Of a stretch of DNA of 64,000 bases, positions 38,140 through 52,007 are shown in pieces. The notes beneath the pieces are model-generated. The model was not told where the DNA came from and did not search any database. It saw only the letters and a list, made by a program, of their open reading frames with translations. Within the stretch, counting starts at the first letter, position 1. Each line of letters opens with the position of its first letter. The DNA is from Massilibacillus massiliensis (lineage in GTDB: Bacteria; Bacillota; Negativicutes; FLKF01), in NCBI RefSeq assembly GCF_900086705.1, contig NZ_LT575483.1, positions 249,166-313,165 on the forward strand. The letters run 5' to 3'. The position numbers and the translations under genes were made by a program.

Positions 38140-39393
38140 TTGCCTATATTACAAAAAGAAAAATCAAACCATTCTAAAATACTTACTTATTTCATTGCAT
38201 TCTGTACTTTACTTCTTACAGCAGCAATGATCCAATATCCCAAAGAAACTTTTGATTCTGCGATCATCGGTTTGAATTTATGGTGGAATGTCGTTTTTCC
38301 ATCATTGTTGCCTTTTTTTATATTATCAGAAATACTTATGGGAATTGGGGTTGTTCATGCATTAGGCATCCTATTAGAACCACTCATGCGTCCCATATTC
38401 AATGTGCCTGGAATTGGCGCCTTTGCACTTTCTATGGGATTAGCTTCTGGCTATCCAATGGACGCTGTAATCACTTGTAAATTTAGAAAAAACAAACTCT
38501 GCAGTACGGTTGAAGCTGAAAGACTATTGGCCTTCACGAATACCGCAGACCCCTTATTTATGTTCGGCGCTGTCGCCGTTGGTATGTTCGCAATGCCCGA
38601 ACTGGGGTCAACAATCGCTATTTCTCATTACTTAGCAAGTTTTTTAGTCGGATTAATTTATCGGTTTTACGGAAGAAACCGTGATCAATATCATCCACGT
38701 AAAGAAAATGTAGACACAAAAAACATTTTTATTCGTGCATTTCATGAATTGTATGTTTCACGAAAAAAAGACAATCGCACATTCAGCGCATTATTAGGCG
38801 ATTCTATAAAATCATCTATGAACACAATTTTATTAATTGGTGGATTTATTATATTATTCTCTGTCTTTTTAAAAATTTTATCAACCATCGGTGTTACAAA
38901 TTACCTTGATGCACTTTTTTCACTATTGCTTGGTTGCATTGGATTTAGTACAAATCTTGCTCAATCATTAAGCATCGGCTTATTTGAAATAGATTTAGGT
39001 GCCTTATCCGCTAGTCAAGCCATTGCTCCGTTAAGTGAAAAAGTGGCGATTGCTGGAGCAATTATTGCTTGGAGTGGCCTTTCTGTACACGGGCAAGTTG
39101 CCAGTATCGTAATTGAAGCTGGAATTAATATGACACCATACATGGTAGCTAGGCTATTACATGCAATCTTATCTGCCATATTGACGCTATTATTTTTAGG
39201 TCCGTGGCAAAGTGTTATGAATTTATTTACATTCCCGGTTATGACAAATTCATATTATCCAACTTCTATCTTCTTTTGGGTCGACAAGCTAACACAAACA
39301 TTGAATCAATTAGTTTTAATTTTATTTATTCTGTTAAGTATTTCTTTAGTTATACACATATTTAAAAAAATCTTTTTATATACAAAAAGATAA
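38140..39393 (+). CDS. ylbJ: Sporulation integral membrane protein YlbJ
   Basis: This 417-residue protein has about eight hydrophobic segments and two nucleoside-recognition (Gate) domains: VVFPSLLPFFILSEILMG with GLASGYPMDA in the first half, and KVAIAGAIIAWSGLSVHGQV in the second. In B. subtilis ylbJ is under sigma-E control and needed for heat-resistant spores. The start is TTG behind AAGGAGGA. Its stop codon lies in the stem of the following terminator. Confidence 0.9.
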   Translation: MPILQKEKSNHSKILTYFIAFCTLLLTAAMIQYPKETFDSAIIGLNLWWNVVFPSLLPFFILSEILMGIGVVHALGILLEPLMRPIFNVPGIGAFALSMGLASGYPMDAVITCKFRKNKLCSTVEAERLLAFTNTADPLFMFGAVAVGMFAMPELGSTIAISHYLASFLVGLIYRFYGRNRDQYHPRKENVDTKNIFIRAFHELYVSRKKDNRTFSALLGDSIKSSMNTILLIGGFIILFSVFLKILSTIGVTNYLDALFSLLLGCIGFSTNLAQSLSIGLFEIDLGALSASQAIAPLSEKVAIAGAIIAWSGLSVHGQVASIVIEAGINMTPYMVARLLHAILSAILTLLFLGPWQSVMNLFTFPVMTNSYYPTSIFFWVDKLTQTLNQLVLILFILLSISLVIHIFKKIFLYTKR

Positions 39394-40495: not shown

Positions 40496-41062
40496 CTACT
40501 CTATATTCATTTTCTCATATGCGAAAAAGCTTACAATGGTTAATCCATACTTTTGACTGCGAATTAAATTCAAATTTGAGTATTCAGCTTTTATTTCATC
40601 TTCTTTAGAATGTTCAATAACTACGAGTCCATCATTTTTAATGATAGACAACTGGTCTAAAGTCTCCAAAATTTTTCCGACAAATCCCTTATTATAAGGA
40701 GGATCACAAAAAATCAAATCAAAAGTTTTTCCAGCGGTGTGAAATTTATGTAATGCCGAAAAAACATCAATTTTAAAGACCTCTGTCATTTCAAATAATT
40801 TTGTATGAATTGCATTCTCTTTAATAACATTAAAACTATTGATATTATGATCAATAAAAGTAGCCTTTTCAGCACCCCTGCTTAAAGCTTCTAAACCAAG
40901 ATTACCTGTTCCAGCAAACAAATCTAATACATTTGCATGATAAACACGACCACCCAAAATATTAAATACGGATTCTTTGACTCGATCAGCAGTAGGTCTT
41001 GTCAACAAACCTTTTGGTGCCTTTAACTTACATCCTTTTGCAACGCCCGTTATTATCCTCAT
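40496..41062 (-). CDS. rsmD: 16S rRNA (guanine966-N2)-methyltransferase RsmD
   Basis: This 188-residue AdoMet enzyme methylates G966 in 16S rRNA. It begins RIITGVAKGCKLKAPKG with RPTADRVKESVFNIL, then the AdoMet loop VLDLFAGTGNLGLEALSRGA and the catalytic FCDPPYNKG. The length is normal. It is first in the rsmD-coaD operon and divergent from the DUF4127 gene. Confidence 0.95.
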   Translation of the reverse strand: MRIITGVAKGCKLKAPKGLLTRPTADRVKESVFNILGGRVYHANVLDLFAGTGNLGLEALSRGAEKATFIDHNINSFNVIKENAIHTKLFEMTEVFKIDVFSALHKFHTAGKTFDLIFCDPPYNKGFVGKILETLDQLSIIKNDGLVVIEHSKEDEIKAEYSNLNLIRSQKYGLTIVSFFAYEKMNIE

Positions 41063-42891: not shown

Positions 42892-42920
42892 TTGACTAAA
42901 AACTTTTCTAGTTGTATAAT
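42892..42920 (+). promoter_or_regulatory. Promoter of tRNA-Gln
   Basis: TTGACT (42892-42897) and TATAAT (42915-42920) are exactly 17 bp apart. The tRNA begins 36 bases after the -10 box. Confidence 0.8.
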
Positions 42921-42956
42921 ATTTAATTGTCAGATGATATATTTTGACTTTCTCAT

Positions 42957-43032
42957 TGGGGCGTCGCCAAGCTGGTAAGGCACGGGACTCTGACTCCCGC
43001 ATTCGTTGGTTCGAATCCAGCCGCCTCAGCCA
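42957..43032 (+). tRNA. tRNA-Gln (anticodon CTG)
   Basis: The gene is 76 bases long. The acceptor arm TGGGGCG pairs with CGCCTCA, and the discriminator G and encoded CCA follow. The anticodon arm is CGGGA-CTCTGAC-TCCCG with anticodon CTG, reading CAG. The T-arm contains GGTTCGAATCC. It stands alone with its own promoter and a long terminator hairpin downstream. Confidence 0.95.
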
Positions 43033-43051
43033 TATTTTAAAATTAAACAAC

Positions 43052-43102
43052 TGAGATAAATAAAAGCAGCTATTCAATGAATAGCTGCTTTTATTTATCT
43101 CA
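43052..43102 (+). terminator. Terminator after tRNA-Gln, 25-bp perfect arms
   Basis: Two arms of 25 bp (43052-43076 and 43078-43102) are exact complements around a single base. The core is GCAGCTATTCA with A-rich and T-rich outer parts, so it works in both directions. It is the only structure between the tRNA and the hairpin at 43228; the 125 bases between them hold nothing recognisable. Confidence 0.8.
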
Positions 43103-43227
43103 AGTAACTTCTACTAGCTTTATCCCAAGAACTTTTATACTAAACGCATTATTAAAAGCTCCACTATTTCATATTATAAATAAATCTATTCCTCTTTTTA
43201 CAAATAAGAATTACACTCACTATCTTT

Positions 43228-43271
43228 ATAGCATAAAAAAACCGCTCTTACGAGCGATTTTTTTATGCTAT
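43228..43271 (-). terminator. Terminator after the SpoVM-like ORF
   Basis: The arms ATAGCATAAAAAAA-CGCTC and their complement pair with one mismatch around a four-base loop. On the minus strand it directly follows, and shares a base with, the TAA of the small ORF at 43271-43351. Confidence 0.8.
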
Positions 43272-43351
43272 TATGCTTTGCAAAATACATGCATAATTTT
43301 ACGTAATGATTTAGGCACAGATAAAACATATATTTTCAAAGATTTCATCAT
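43271..43351 (-). CDS. spoVM: Candidate SpoVM, 26 residues
   Basis: A 26-codon frame begins MMKSLKIYVLSVPK behind AAGGGGGCG and ends at a terminator. B. subtilis SpoVM is also 26 residues. Setting its K-F-Y-T-I-K-L-P-K-F-L-G-G-I against K-I-Y-V-L-S-V-P-K-S-L-R-K-I here gives matches at Lys, Tyr, Pro, Lys, Leu and Ile in register, with mostly conservative changes elsewhere. SpoVM is an amphipathic helix that marks the curved forespore membrane and recruits SpoIVA, encoded at 50341. The ORF follows the cobalamin adenosyltransferase gene by 58 bases. The two Gly residues of SpoVM are Arg-Lys here. Confidence 0.5.
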   Translation of the reverse strand: MMKSLKIYVLSVPKSLRKIMHVFCKA

Positions 43352-43409
43352 AATCGCCCCCTTATTACACCCACATAGCAAATTTACTATATACTATGTA
43401 ATAAATAAA

Positions 43410-43916
43410 TCATTGGCTACTACTATTTTCCTCTAGGCGCATTAATACAAAACATAAATCAGATAAACGATTTAATACAATAAGAACGTCTTGCGAAATT
43501 TTTTCATTTCTAGCCAAAGTCCAGACTTTACGTTCAGCCCTACGAACCACAGTTCTTGCTAAGTCTAACGCGGCTCCGCCCTTACTATTTCCCGAAATCA
43601 AAAATTTATTTAACGGAGGTAATTTAGAATCTATTTGATCAATCATCGACTCCAAATAAGAAATATGATCTACTGTAATATACTGACCTTCCGAAGTACT
43701 TGCTAATTCCGCCATGAGCGACATATTCATCTCTTGTAATTTATAAATCACTTCTTGAATAAACGTTTTTTCACAAAATGCTCGAGCTAAACCTAGAGCA
43801 GAGTTAATTTCATCAACAGTGCCATATGCATCTACACGTAAAGAATCTTTTTCCACGCGTTCGCCTGTATATAACCCAGTACTTCCATTATCACCAGTTT
43901 TAGTATAAACACTCAT
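43410..43916 (-). CDS. Cob(I)alamin adenosyltransferase, PduO type
   Basis: This 168-residue enzyme transfers the adenosyl group of ATP to cobalamin. It has the N-terminal KTGDNGSTGLYTGERV ATP loop, DAYGTVDEINSALGLAR, and ARTVVRRAERKVW with the Arg residues that bind ATP. No other cobalamin gene is nearby. The family is also called CobO/PduO; which pathway it serves cannot be told from the window. Confidence 0.93.
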   Translation of the reverse strand: MSVYTKTGDNGSTGLYTGERVEKDSLRVDAYGTVDEINSALGLARAFCEKTFIQEVIYKLQEMNMSLMAELASTSEGQYITVDHISYLESMIDQIDSKLPPLNKFLISGNSKGGAALDLARTVVRRAERKVWTLARNEKISQDVLIVLNRLSDLCFVLMRLEENSSSQ

Positions 43917-50340: not shown

Positions 50341-51819
50341 TTAAAAGATAATACAAATTAACCCGCCGCTTCCATCATTCACAATCTTGGTTAAAGCATC
50401 GCGTAGTTTTATCTGAGCATTTTCAGGCATGCCGGCCAACTTATTTTGAATGCCTTCTCTTACAAGTGAATTTAACGATTTACCAAATAAGTTAGTGCGC
50501 CAAATTCTTTCCGGTTCACCTTCAAATTCTCGCATTAAATACTGAATTAATTCTTCACTTTGTTTCTCTGTACCTAATATTGGCGATATTTCTGCCTGCA
50601 CATCGGTCTTTATAATATGCAACGATGGAGCAGTTGCTTTCAGTCTAACACCAAATTTATTTCCGGTCCGAATAATTTCAGGCTCTTCTAATACCATCTC
50701 ATCTATCTGCGGAGCAACAACAGCATATCCTGTTTCTTTTACCTGTTCTAATGCATCCGCTAATTTATCATATTCTCTTTTTGCAACTGCTAAACTTTGC
50801 ATTAAACGCAGCAAATGGTGTTCCCCACTAACTGTAAATCCAGTTAATTCTTCTATAACTTGATAGAATAAATCACCTCTAGCAGTAATTTCAATTACTG
50901 CTACGCCACTGCCTAAATCCATATCTTGTAAAATAACATCAGCAACAAATTCACAATTTGCCAATTCATCGATCGCACCATCAATATCACGAAGTCTACG
51001 AATTTCTCCAATAACTTCATTAACTGAACTTGTGAATTTTTCCTTTAACCAATGTGTATCACTTAATTCTTCTACCCATTTTGGCAATTCAATATTTACT
51101 TCTTTTACAGGGAACTCATACAATACTTCTTGTAATATTGCATAAATATCTTCACTGCCCAATTTGGCACAATCTACAGGAATTACCGGAACATTATATT
51201 TTCCTTCTAACTCAGCAACTAATTCAAGAGTTTCCATTGCAGTTGGCTTATTTGTATTTATAATCACTAAAAAAGGTTTTTGAAGCTCTTTTAATTCTGA
51301 AATCACACGTTCTTCCGCTTCTATATATTTTTCTCGTTCTAGTTCAGTCACACTGCCATCCGTACTAACAACTAATCCAATCGTAGAATGTTCTGTTATT
51401 ACTTTTTTTGTTCCTATTTCAGCGGCTTCTTGAAAAGGTATTTCTTCTTCAAACCAAGGAGTAAGTACCATACGCGGGACATCTTGCTCCGCATACCCCA
51501 AGGCACCCTCAACAGTATAGCCAACGCAATCAACCATGCGTACTCTCACTGCAACATTATCCTTAATACTTATTTCAACAGCTTCATTTGGAATAAATTT
51601 AGGCTCCGTTGTCATGATTGTTTTTCCAGCAGCACTCTGTGGCAGCTCATCTTTTGCACGTTCTTGTTCATATGGATCCGTAATATTTGGCAAAATCATC
51701 GTTTCCATAAACTTTTTAATAAAAGTTGATTTACCCGTACGTACCGGACCAACAACACCAATATAGATATCTCCCCCAGTACGTTCAGCAATATCTCTAA
51801 ATAAATCAAACTTCTCCAT
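50341..51819 (-). CDS. spoIVA: Stage IV sporulation protein A
   Basis: This 492-residue ATPase polymerises on the forespore surface to form the base of the spore coat. It begins MEKFDLFRDIAERTGGDIYIG, with the nucleotide loop GPVRTGKSTF, the switch MVDCVGYTVEGA, and VISTDGSV-like and INTNKPT motifs of the TRAFAC type. It ends in the conserved GGLICIIF tail that docks on SpoVM. The start at 51819 follows GGGAGGG. It stands alone between two terminators. Confidence 0.97.
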   Translation of the reverse strand: MEKFDLFRDIAERTGGDIYIGVVGPVRTGKSTFIKKFMETMILPNITDPYEQERAKDELPQSAAGKTIMTTEPKFIPNEAVEISIKDNVAVRVRMVDCVGYTVEGALGYAEQDVPRMVLTPWFEEEIPFQEAAEIGTKKVITEHSTIGLVVSTDGSVTELEREKYIEAEERVISELKELQKPFLVIINTNKPTAMETLELVAELEGKYNVPVIPVDCAKLGSEDIYAILQEVLYEFPVKEVNIELPKWVEELSDTHWLKEKFTSSVNEVIGEIRRLRDIDGAIDELANCEFVADVILQDMDLGSGVAVIEITARGDLFYQVIEELTGFTVSGEHHLLRLMQSLAVAKREYDKLADALEQVKETGYAVVAPQIDEMVLEEPEIIRTGNKFGVRLKATAPSLHIIKTDVQAEISPILGTEKQSEELIQYLMREFEGEPERIWRTNLFGKSLNSLVREGIQNKLAGMPENAQIKLRDALTKIVNDGSGGLICIIF

Positions 51820-52007
51820 ATATGTAATCCCTCCCCACACAATAGATAGTTTTTGTGAGCGATCGCCGATTAAACTCCCCCCTCACTTAGATAAACTTAT
51901 TCATACGAGAAGGAAAATAACATGAATGAACTTTTAGCAATGCTCATTAGTCATTAATAAATATATGATGAATCTATCATTCTATGCCCAATATTTTCAT
52001 ATAAAAA

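Follow-up and report, generated by a model that had tools for sequence, protein, structure and literature searches.

A conserved small open reading frame as the probable spoVM gene of Negativicutes

SpoVM serves as a model for how a peptide senses membrane curvature and how the spore coat is anchored. In a stretch of 64,000 nucleotides from Massilibacillus massiliensis (the window), an earlier note pointed to an unlisted 26-codon frame as a possible divergent SpoVM. The locus raises the question of whether this frame is a gene and, if so, whether it is the spoVM gene of Negativicutes. Galperin et al. (2012) reported that SpoVM is rarely recognised in annotation and was not found in several spore formers, and their study had no genome sequence of a spore-forming Negativicutes available (PMC3533761). 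The papers that we examined contained no mention of SpoVM in spore formers of this class; priority is unproven. We consider it highly probable that the small ORF represents spoVM in Negativicutes, with its function assigned by analogy.

A small gene conserved across the class

The features of the locus are listed in Table 1. The proposed frame exists; its strand had been left unstated and is minus, and the plus-strand translation of the same interval contains stops. It encodes 26 residues followed by TAA (ATG ATG AAA ... GCA TAA). Aligned relatives have their start at the second ATG; the native peptide is therefore probably 25 residues long, and the equal length of 26 residues, which had been offered in support of SpoVM, is not evidence. 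The strong ribosome-binding site described previously lies 5 nt ahead of the first ATG and 8 nt ahead of the second. The terminator was also described correctly; it has a 20-bp stem (−28.2 kcal/mol, z = −10.1), is roughly symmetric and may work for both strands. The product is a strongly basic peptide of 25–26 residues. The hydrophobic moment of the helix behind its proline is 0.64, within the top 4% of shuffled sequences, and most relatives fall within the top 3%.

Table 1. Features of the small-ORF locus, in window coordinates.
Feature	Coordinates	Strand	Description	Basis or remark
Small ORF	43271..43351	minus (43351→43271)	MMKSLKIYVLSVPKSLRKIMHVFCKA; probable Negativicutes SpoVM	translation, homologues, SpoVM profile match
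Probable true frame	43271..43348	minus	25 aa, second ATG	starts of aligned relatives
Ribosome-binding site	43357..43363	minus	AAGGGGG	relatives keep AAGGGGGCGA or AGGGAGGCGA
Terminator hairpin	43228..43271	minus		starts with the final base of the stop codon
−10 element	43388..43398	minus	CATAGTATATA, mother-cell sigma type CATAnnnTA	similar distance in relatives
Weak −35 element	43414..43418	minus	AGCC/GCCA	relatives mostly CAC[AC]
Cobalamin adenosyltransferase-type gene (MMAB)	43410..43916	minus	immediate upstream neighbour	conserved; name from the earlier note
rsmD	40496..41062	minus	start of rsmD-coaD-ylbJ block	block also found after clostridial spoVM
ylbJ-type gene	38140..39393	plus	presumably a sporulation membrane protein	tentative name
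spoIVA	50341..51819	minus	predicted partner, 7 kb from the small ORF	C-terminus GSGGLICIIF

When 40 relatives were searched with the single peptide, matches of 23–27 residues appeared in different families, ranging from 79% identity (E 6.6e-8) to 46%. In their sequence context, about 20 of them are complete ORFs of 24–27 residues with GTG, ATG or TTG starts, each with its own stop and a strong ribosome-binding site, and in most cases with a terminator-like stem. Four matches (L022, L023, L025 and L026) were discarded on inspection as chance. Profile A1, built from the relatives' ORFs and run over 250 genomes of the class, detected the ORF in 52 of them at E ≤ 1.2e-6. Frame, start, ribosome-binding site and stop are kept over about 19 family-level groups. 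Purifying selection, for which a check had been proposed, is indicated by a pooled pN/pS of 0.18 in close pairs, and the genes for identical Pelosinus peptides differ at synonymous sites only. The conserved homologues, the class-wide profile matches and the pN/pS value indicate that the small ORF is a real gene. One weak A1 match (G232:C56:14693-14764, E 2e-4), in a genome with no detected SpoIVA, may be a relic or chance.

The ORF occurs together with SpoIVA. Among the 250 genomes, SpoIVA was found in 51, the ORF in 52 and both in 50 (Fisher 5e-49, uncorrected for kinship). In the 210 genomes outside profile building, all 30 ORF genomes have SpoIVA and 30 of the 31 SpoIVA genomes have the ORF; the Fisher value is 1.6e-35, again uncorrected for kinship, which inflates such p-values. 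Of the about 19 family-level groups with one of the two genes, all have the other as well. None of the exceptions carries much weight: in G029 a piece of SpoIVA sits at the end of a contig, G142, with SpoIVA and no ORF, is only 58% complete, and G036, a 93% complete MAG, has the ORF with SpoIVA undetected. Essentially all spore-forming Negativicutes genomes thus have the ORF and almost no others do, and therefore the gene belongs to sporulation. The window genome (4.0 Mb, 98% complete) has SpoIVA at the distance, and with the C-terminal docking tail, that had been noted; two clostridial SpoIVAs end in GSGGLICIIL or GSGSLICIIL, compared with GSGGLICIIF here.

The gene neighbourhood is also conserved. 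The earlier note proposed to look for the small ORF downstream of the adenosyltransferase gene in other Negativicutes, and it lies directly behind that gene in 20 of the 21 loci examined. The gene order is adenosyltransferase>ORF>(EF-G-like)<DUF4127>rsmD>coaD>X<ylbJ in Negativicutes and rpe>spoVM<rpmB>asp23>fakA>recG>rsmD>coaD>X<ylbJ in clostridia, with the same orientation. In 12 of the 21 loci the ORF is upstream of rsmD-coaD-X-ylbJ within about 10 kb and in the same orientation; in the other nine, some of them at contig ends, rsmD is not within 10 kb. The rpmB-asp23-fakA-recG genes, found between spoVM and rsmD in clostridia, are missing at the Negativicutes loci. The 690-aa downstream neighbour was considered as RecG and rejected, as its sequence is EF-G-like. 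Most relatives have this EF-G-like paralogue (~690 aa) behind the ORF; it is missing from the window, where positions 42900-43270 instead hold a tRNA-Gln(CTG) on the strand opposite to the ORF, with strong terminators.

Relation to canonical SpoVM

The Pfam and NCBIfam SpoVM models (PF08183, NF033436) left the window peptide unmatched up to E = 10, and scans of both libraries matched it to no family. Eight relatives compared with NCBIfam yielded a single hit, weak and below threshold, to an unrelated family. The NCBI SpoVM model gave nothing above its cut-off in the 250 class genomes, only sub-threshold partial matches, while in a phylum-wide sample of 299 genomes 15 exceeded it. These models were presumably built without Negativicutes sequences. 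A different spoVM elsewhere, which would have spoken against the proposal, was found by the Pfam and NCBIfam models neither in the window genome nor in the class.

Profile comparison gave a different result. Against 22 canonical SpoVMs taken from the phylum, hhalign aligned A1 with 93.2% probability (P 3e-7, score 27.3), ungapped from K-x-Y to the helix, and 300 column permutations of A1 reached at most 39% and a score of 16.7. This alignment independently reproduced the register of Lys, Tyr, Pro, Lys, Leu and Ile proposed from the single peptide. A profile search of the PDB with A3 returned two SpoVM entries, 2mvh and 2mvj; with the A3 HMM alone, only 8 of 37 members score above the best shuffled peptide. 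The same search with A1 gave chance matches only, nearly all to SUMO through a PLRxLM stretch.

In the A1 alignment of 20 sequences, Y8 and P13 are invariant and nearly all have Lys or Arg two residues ahead of the Tyr. In SpoVM, K2 and I15 act in the cortex checkpoint, I6 in SpoIVA binding and P9 in curvature (PMC5607322). They correspond to K6, I19, L10 and P13 of the Negativicutes peptide: nearly every member has Lys or Arg as the K2 equivalent, those of I6 and I15 are hydrophobic, and that of P9 is invariant. Like the SpoVM of Bacilli, including B. subtilis (PF08183, NF011327/NF033436; PDB 2mvh, 2mvj), the peptide has ~25 residues, a Lys-x-Tyr-x4-Pro-Lys-x-Leu core, an amphipathic helix behind the invariant proline, a net charge of about +6 and co-occurrence with SpoIVA. 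It differs in having 2–4 extra N-terminal residues, a shorter C-terminus, Arg-Lys for Gly-Gly, and mostly Ser, Thr or Ala at Lys7, which is conserved in more than 90% of the canonical set. The family models miss it, and its promoter type and immediate neighbours are also different.

The replacement of Gly-Gly by Arg-Lys that the earlier note described is one end of a gradient that includes Gly-Lys or Ser-Lys in clostridia and Leu-Arg-Gly/Ser in an intermediate family. Clostridial SpoVM (MKIYVFKLPKKLGKIVRKILGLFSREHEE, L075; MRIYVLKLPKTLSKFVKAVLGLFGQEK, L071) shares the KIYV core and Pro-Lys-x-Leu-x-Lys and already has Lys at the second Gly; Negativicutes have Arg where it has Gly or Ser. As in Negativicutes, its gene precedes rsmD-coaD-ylbJ and has the same orientation. 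Unlike the Negativicutes gene, it is flanked by rpe and rpmB and often preceded by a frame resembling a small single-helix membrane protein. That frame ends just ahead of spoVM (for example ...WVWMLAMGGFLVWFGWILCNTKW*) in L071, L073, L075, L079, L085, L088, L089, L091, L098 and L100; it seems to be co-transcribed and may be unannotated.

When A1 was run over the phylum, three matches at E ≤ 0.01 came from beyond the class, among them G311 and its relative G349 of family f90. In G311, one ORF was matched at the same place by A1 and the SpoVM model. The two sequences (MRFYVFRVPRFLRSLLRLFIRSK; LRFYVFRVPRLLRGIIRLFIRNR) have R-F-Y as in SpoVM and V-P-x-x-L-R as in Negativicutes; they are without the N-terminal extension and retain the setting rpe>spoVM>rpmB-asp23-fakA>rsmD. 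These sequences of family f90 bridge the Negativicutes peptide and canonical SpoVM.

The earlier proposal of a divergent SpoVM missed by the models is supported by the conservation of the frame, the profile match, the pairing with SpoIVA and the finding of no other SpoVM in the class by the Pfam and NCBIfam models. The Negativicutes peptide is a divergent member of SpoVM that is absent from Pfam and NCBIfam, and very probably the orthologue. It has a short arm at its N-terminus, then the invariant SpoVM proline, which forms a kink, and behind it an amphipathic helix. By analogy with SpoVM, this helix would lie shallowly in the forespore outer membrane, on the mother-cell side and the convex face. 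The kink would set the curvature preference, and the arm residues ahead of it would hold SpoIVA at the membrane and thereby tether the coat. Both kinds of binding are extrapolated from SpoVM, and localisation and timing are predictions as well.

Promoter and timing

The promoter was not part of the earlier proposal and is new. The strict form CAC[AC]-N15/16-CATAnnnTA is present in 21 of 37 regions upstream of the ORF (shuffle mean 0.01), and near-matches occur at most of the other loci, including the window, where the −35 is weak. A scan with both patterns gave the sigma-K type in 22 of the 37 and the sigma-E type in none. In the same genomes, 19 of 21 spoIVA upstream regions have the sigma-E type and none the sigma-K type; the spoIVA promoter has a GTAATATT-like −35, N13 and CATATATTTATA. 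A highly conserved GTAATATT-N13-CATATATTTATAATGATTAA was observed about 50–165 nt upstream of spoIVA in the class (window 51840-52000; L138-L157). The −35 sequence ATA distinguishes sigma-E from sigma-K, which has AC, in C. difficile and B. subtilis (PMC3789822). The small-ORF promoter looks sigma-K-like, unlike the sigma-E-like promoter of spoIVA. Published spoVM genes are controlled by sigma-E in both C. difficile (PMC5607322) and B. subtilis (PMC517825); therefore, the small ORF may be expressed later in Negativicutes than spoVM is elsewhere. Transcription would take place in the mother cell, probably by sigma-K, and the peptide might come into play at a later stage than in Bacillus. Directly ahead of canonical spoVM genes, neither pattern was found, except for one sigma-E-like match (L077).

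A genome scan with the ORF promoter pattern also led to CotJA in the window genome; controls gave up to several chance matches per genome. Pelosinus fermentans JBW45 (G023; L200-L206) has at least six near-identical Gly/Ile-rich peptides of 38–39 residues (MGLGFGGGRNGFGGSGCIIIIIIILLFFCCDNNDCSSGC type) and one shorter relative. These peptides, and another in G004 (L187), lie about 27–36 nt behind CACC-N15/16-CATACAATATA. They match no Pfam family and look like an unannotated family of small late-sporulation proteins. In three genomes (L173, L190, L194), a protein of roughly 90–157 residues starting MRKLR..KP.SIDLDHM has a promoter of the CAC[AC]-CATAnnnTA type; the one tested matches no Pfam family.

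Alternative readings and meaning

Frames of 26 codons are frequent, and the other strand likewise has an open stretch of 119 codons, so that a chance frame between the adenosyltransferase gene and the terminator might be considered; the conservation across family-level groups and the low pN/pS refute this, and we give it practically no weight. It is more conceivable, yet improbable, that the ORF encodes a conserved sporulation peptide of other descent, an unrelated amphipathic mother-cell peptide that converged on Lys-x-Tyr-x4-Pro. Short basic amphipathic peptides are easy to mimic, the SpoVM models miss this one, K7 is lost and the promoter class differs. CmpA, a separate small SpoIVA-linked protein, provides a parallel. 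Such convergence is opposed by the ungapped profile match well beyond its permuted controls, the bridge sequences matched by both profiles, the position near rsmD-coaD-ylbJ and the finding of no other SpoVM in the class by the NCBI model.

Orthology leaves room for a changed role. The peptide could be a SpoVM of the same lineage that is not the first recruiter of SpoIVA and instead secures the assembled coat after engulfment, under sigma-K. This is a plausible reading, although we stop short of calling it probable. The opposite promoter counts of the ORF and spoIVA are consistent with it, as are the shared pattern of CotJA in the window genome, the sigma-K control of the cotJB operon in C. difficile (PMC3789822) and the almost normal spores of C. 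difficile without SpoVM (PMC5607322). However, the −35 of the window itself is weak, the promoter specificities assumed for Negativicutes come from other classes, and cotJ is under sigma-E in B. subtilis. As a more tentative proposal, outer-membraned spore formers may have shifted SpoVM to the sigma-K programme and altered its SpoIVA-facing residues, so that it serves as a late coat clamp; SpoIVA would then need another route to the forespore.

With the small ORF read as spoVM, the missing gene is supplied for the whole class Negativicutes, and an A1-type profile can be used by annotators. The series of sequences opens the coevolution of SpoIVA and SpoVM to study, and the promoters offer a testable difference in timing between classes of spore formers. 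If the late-clamp reading is true, the order of coat assembly differs among these classes.
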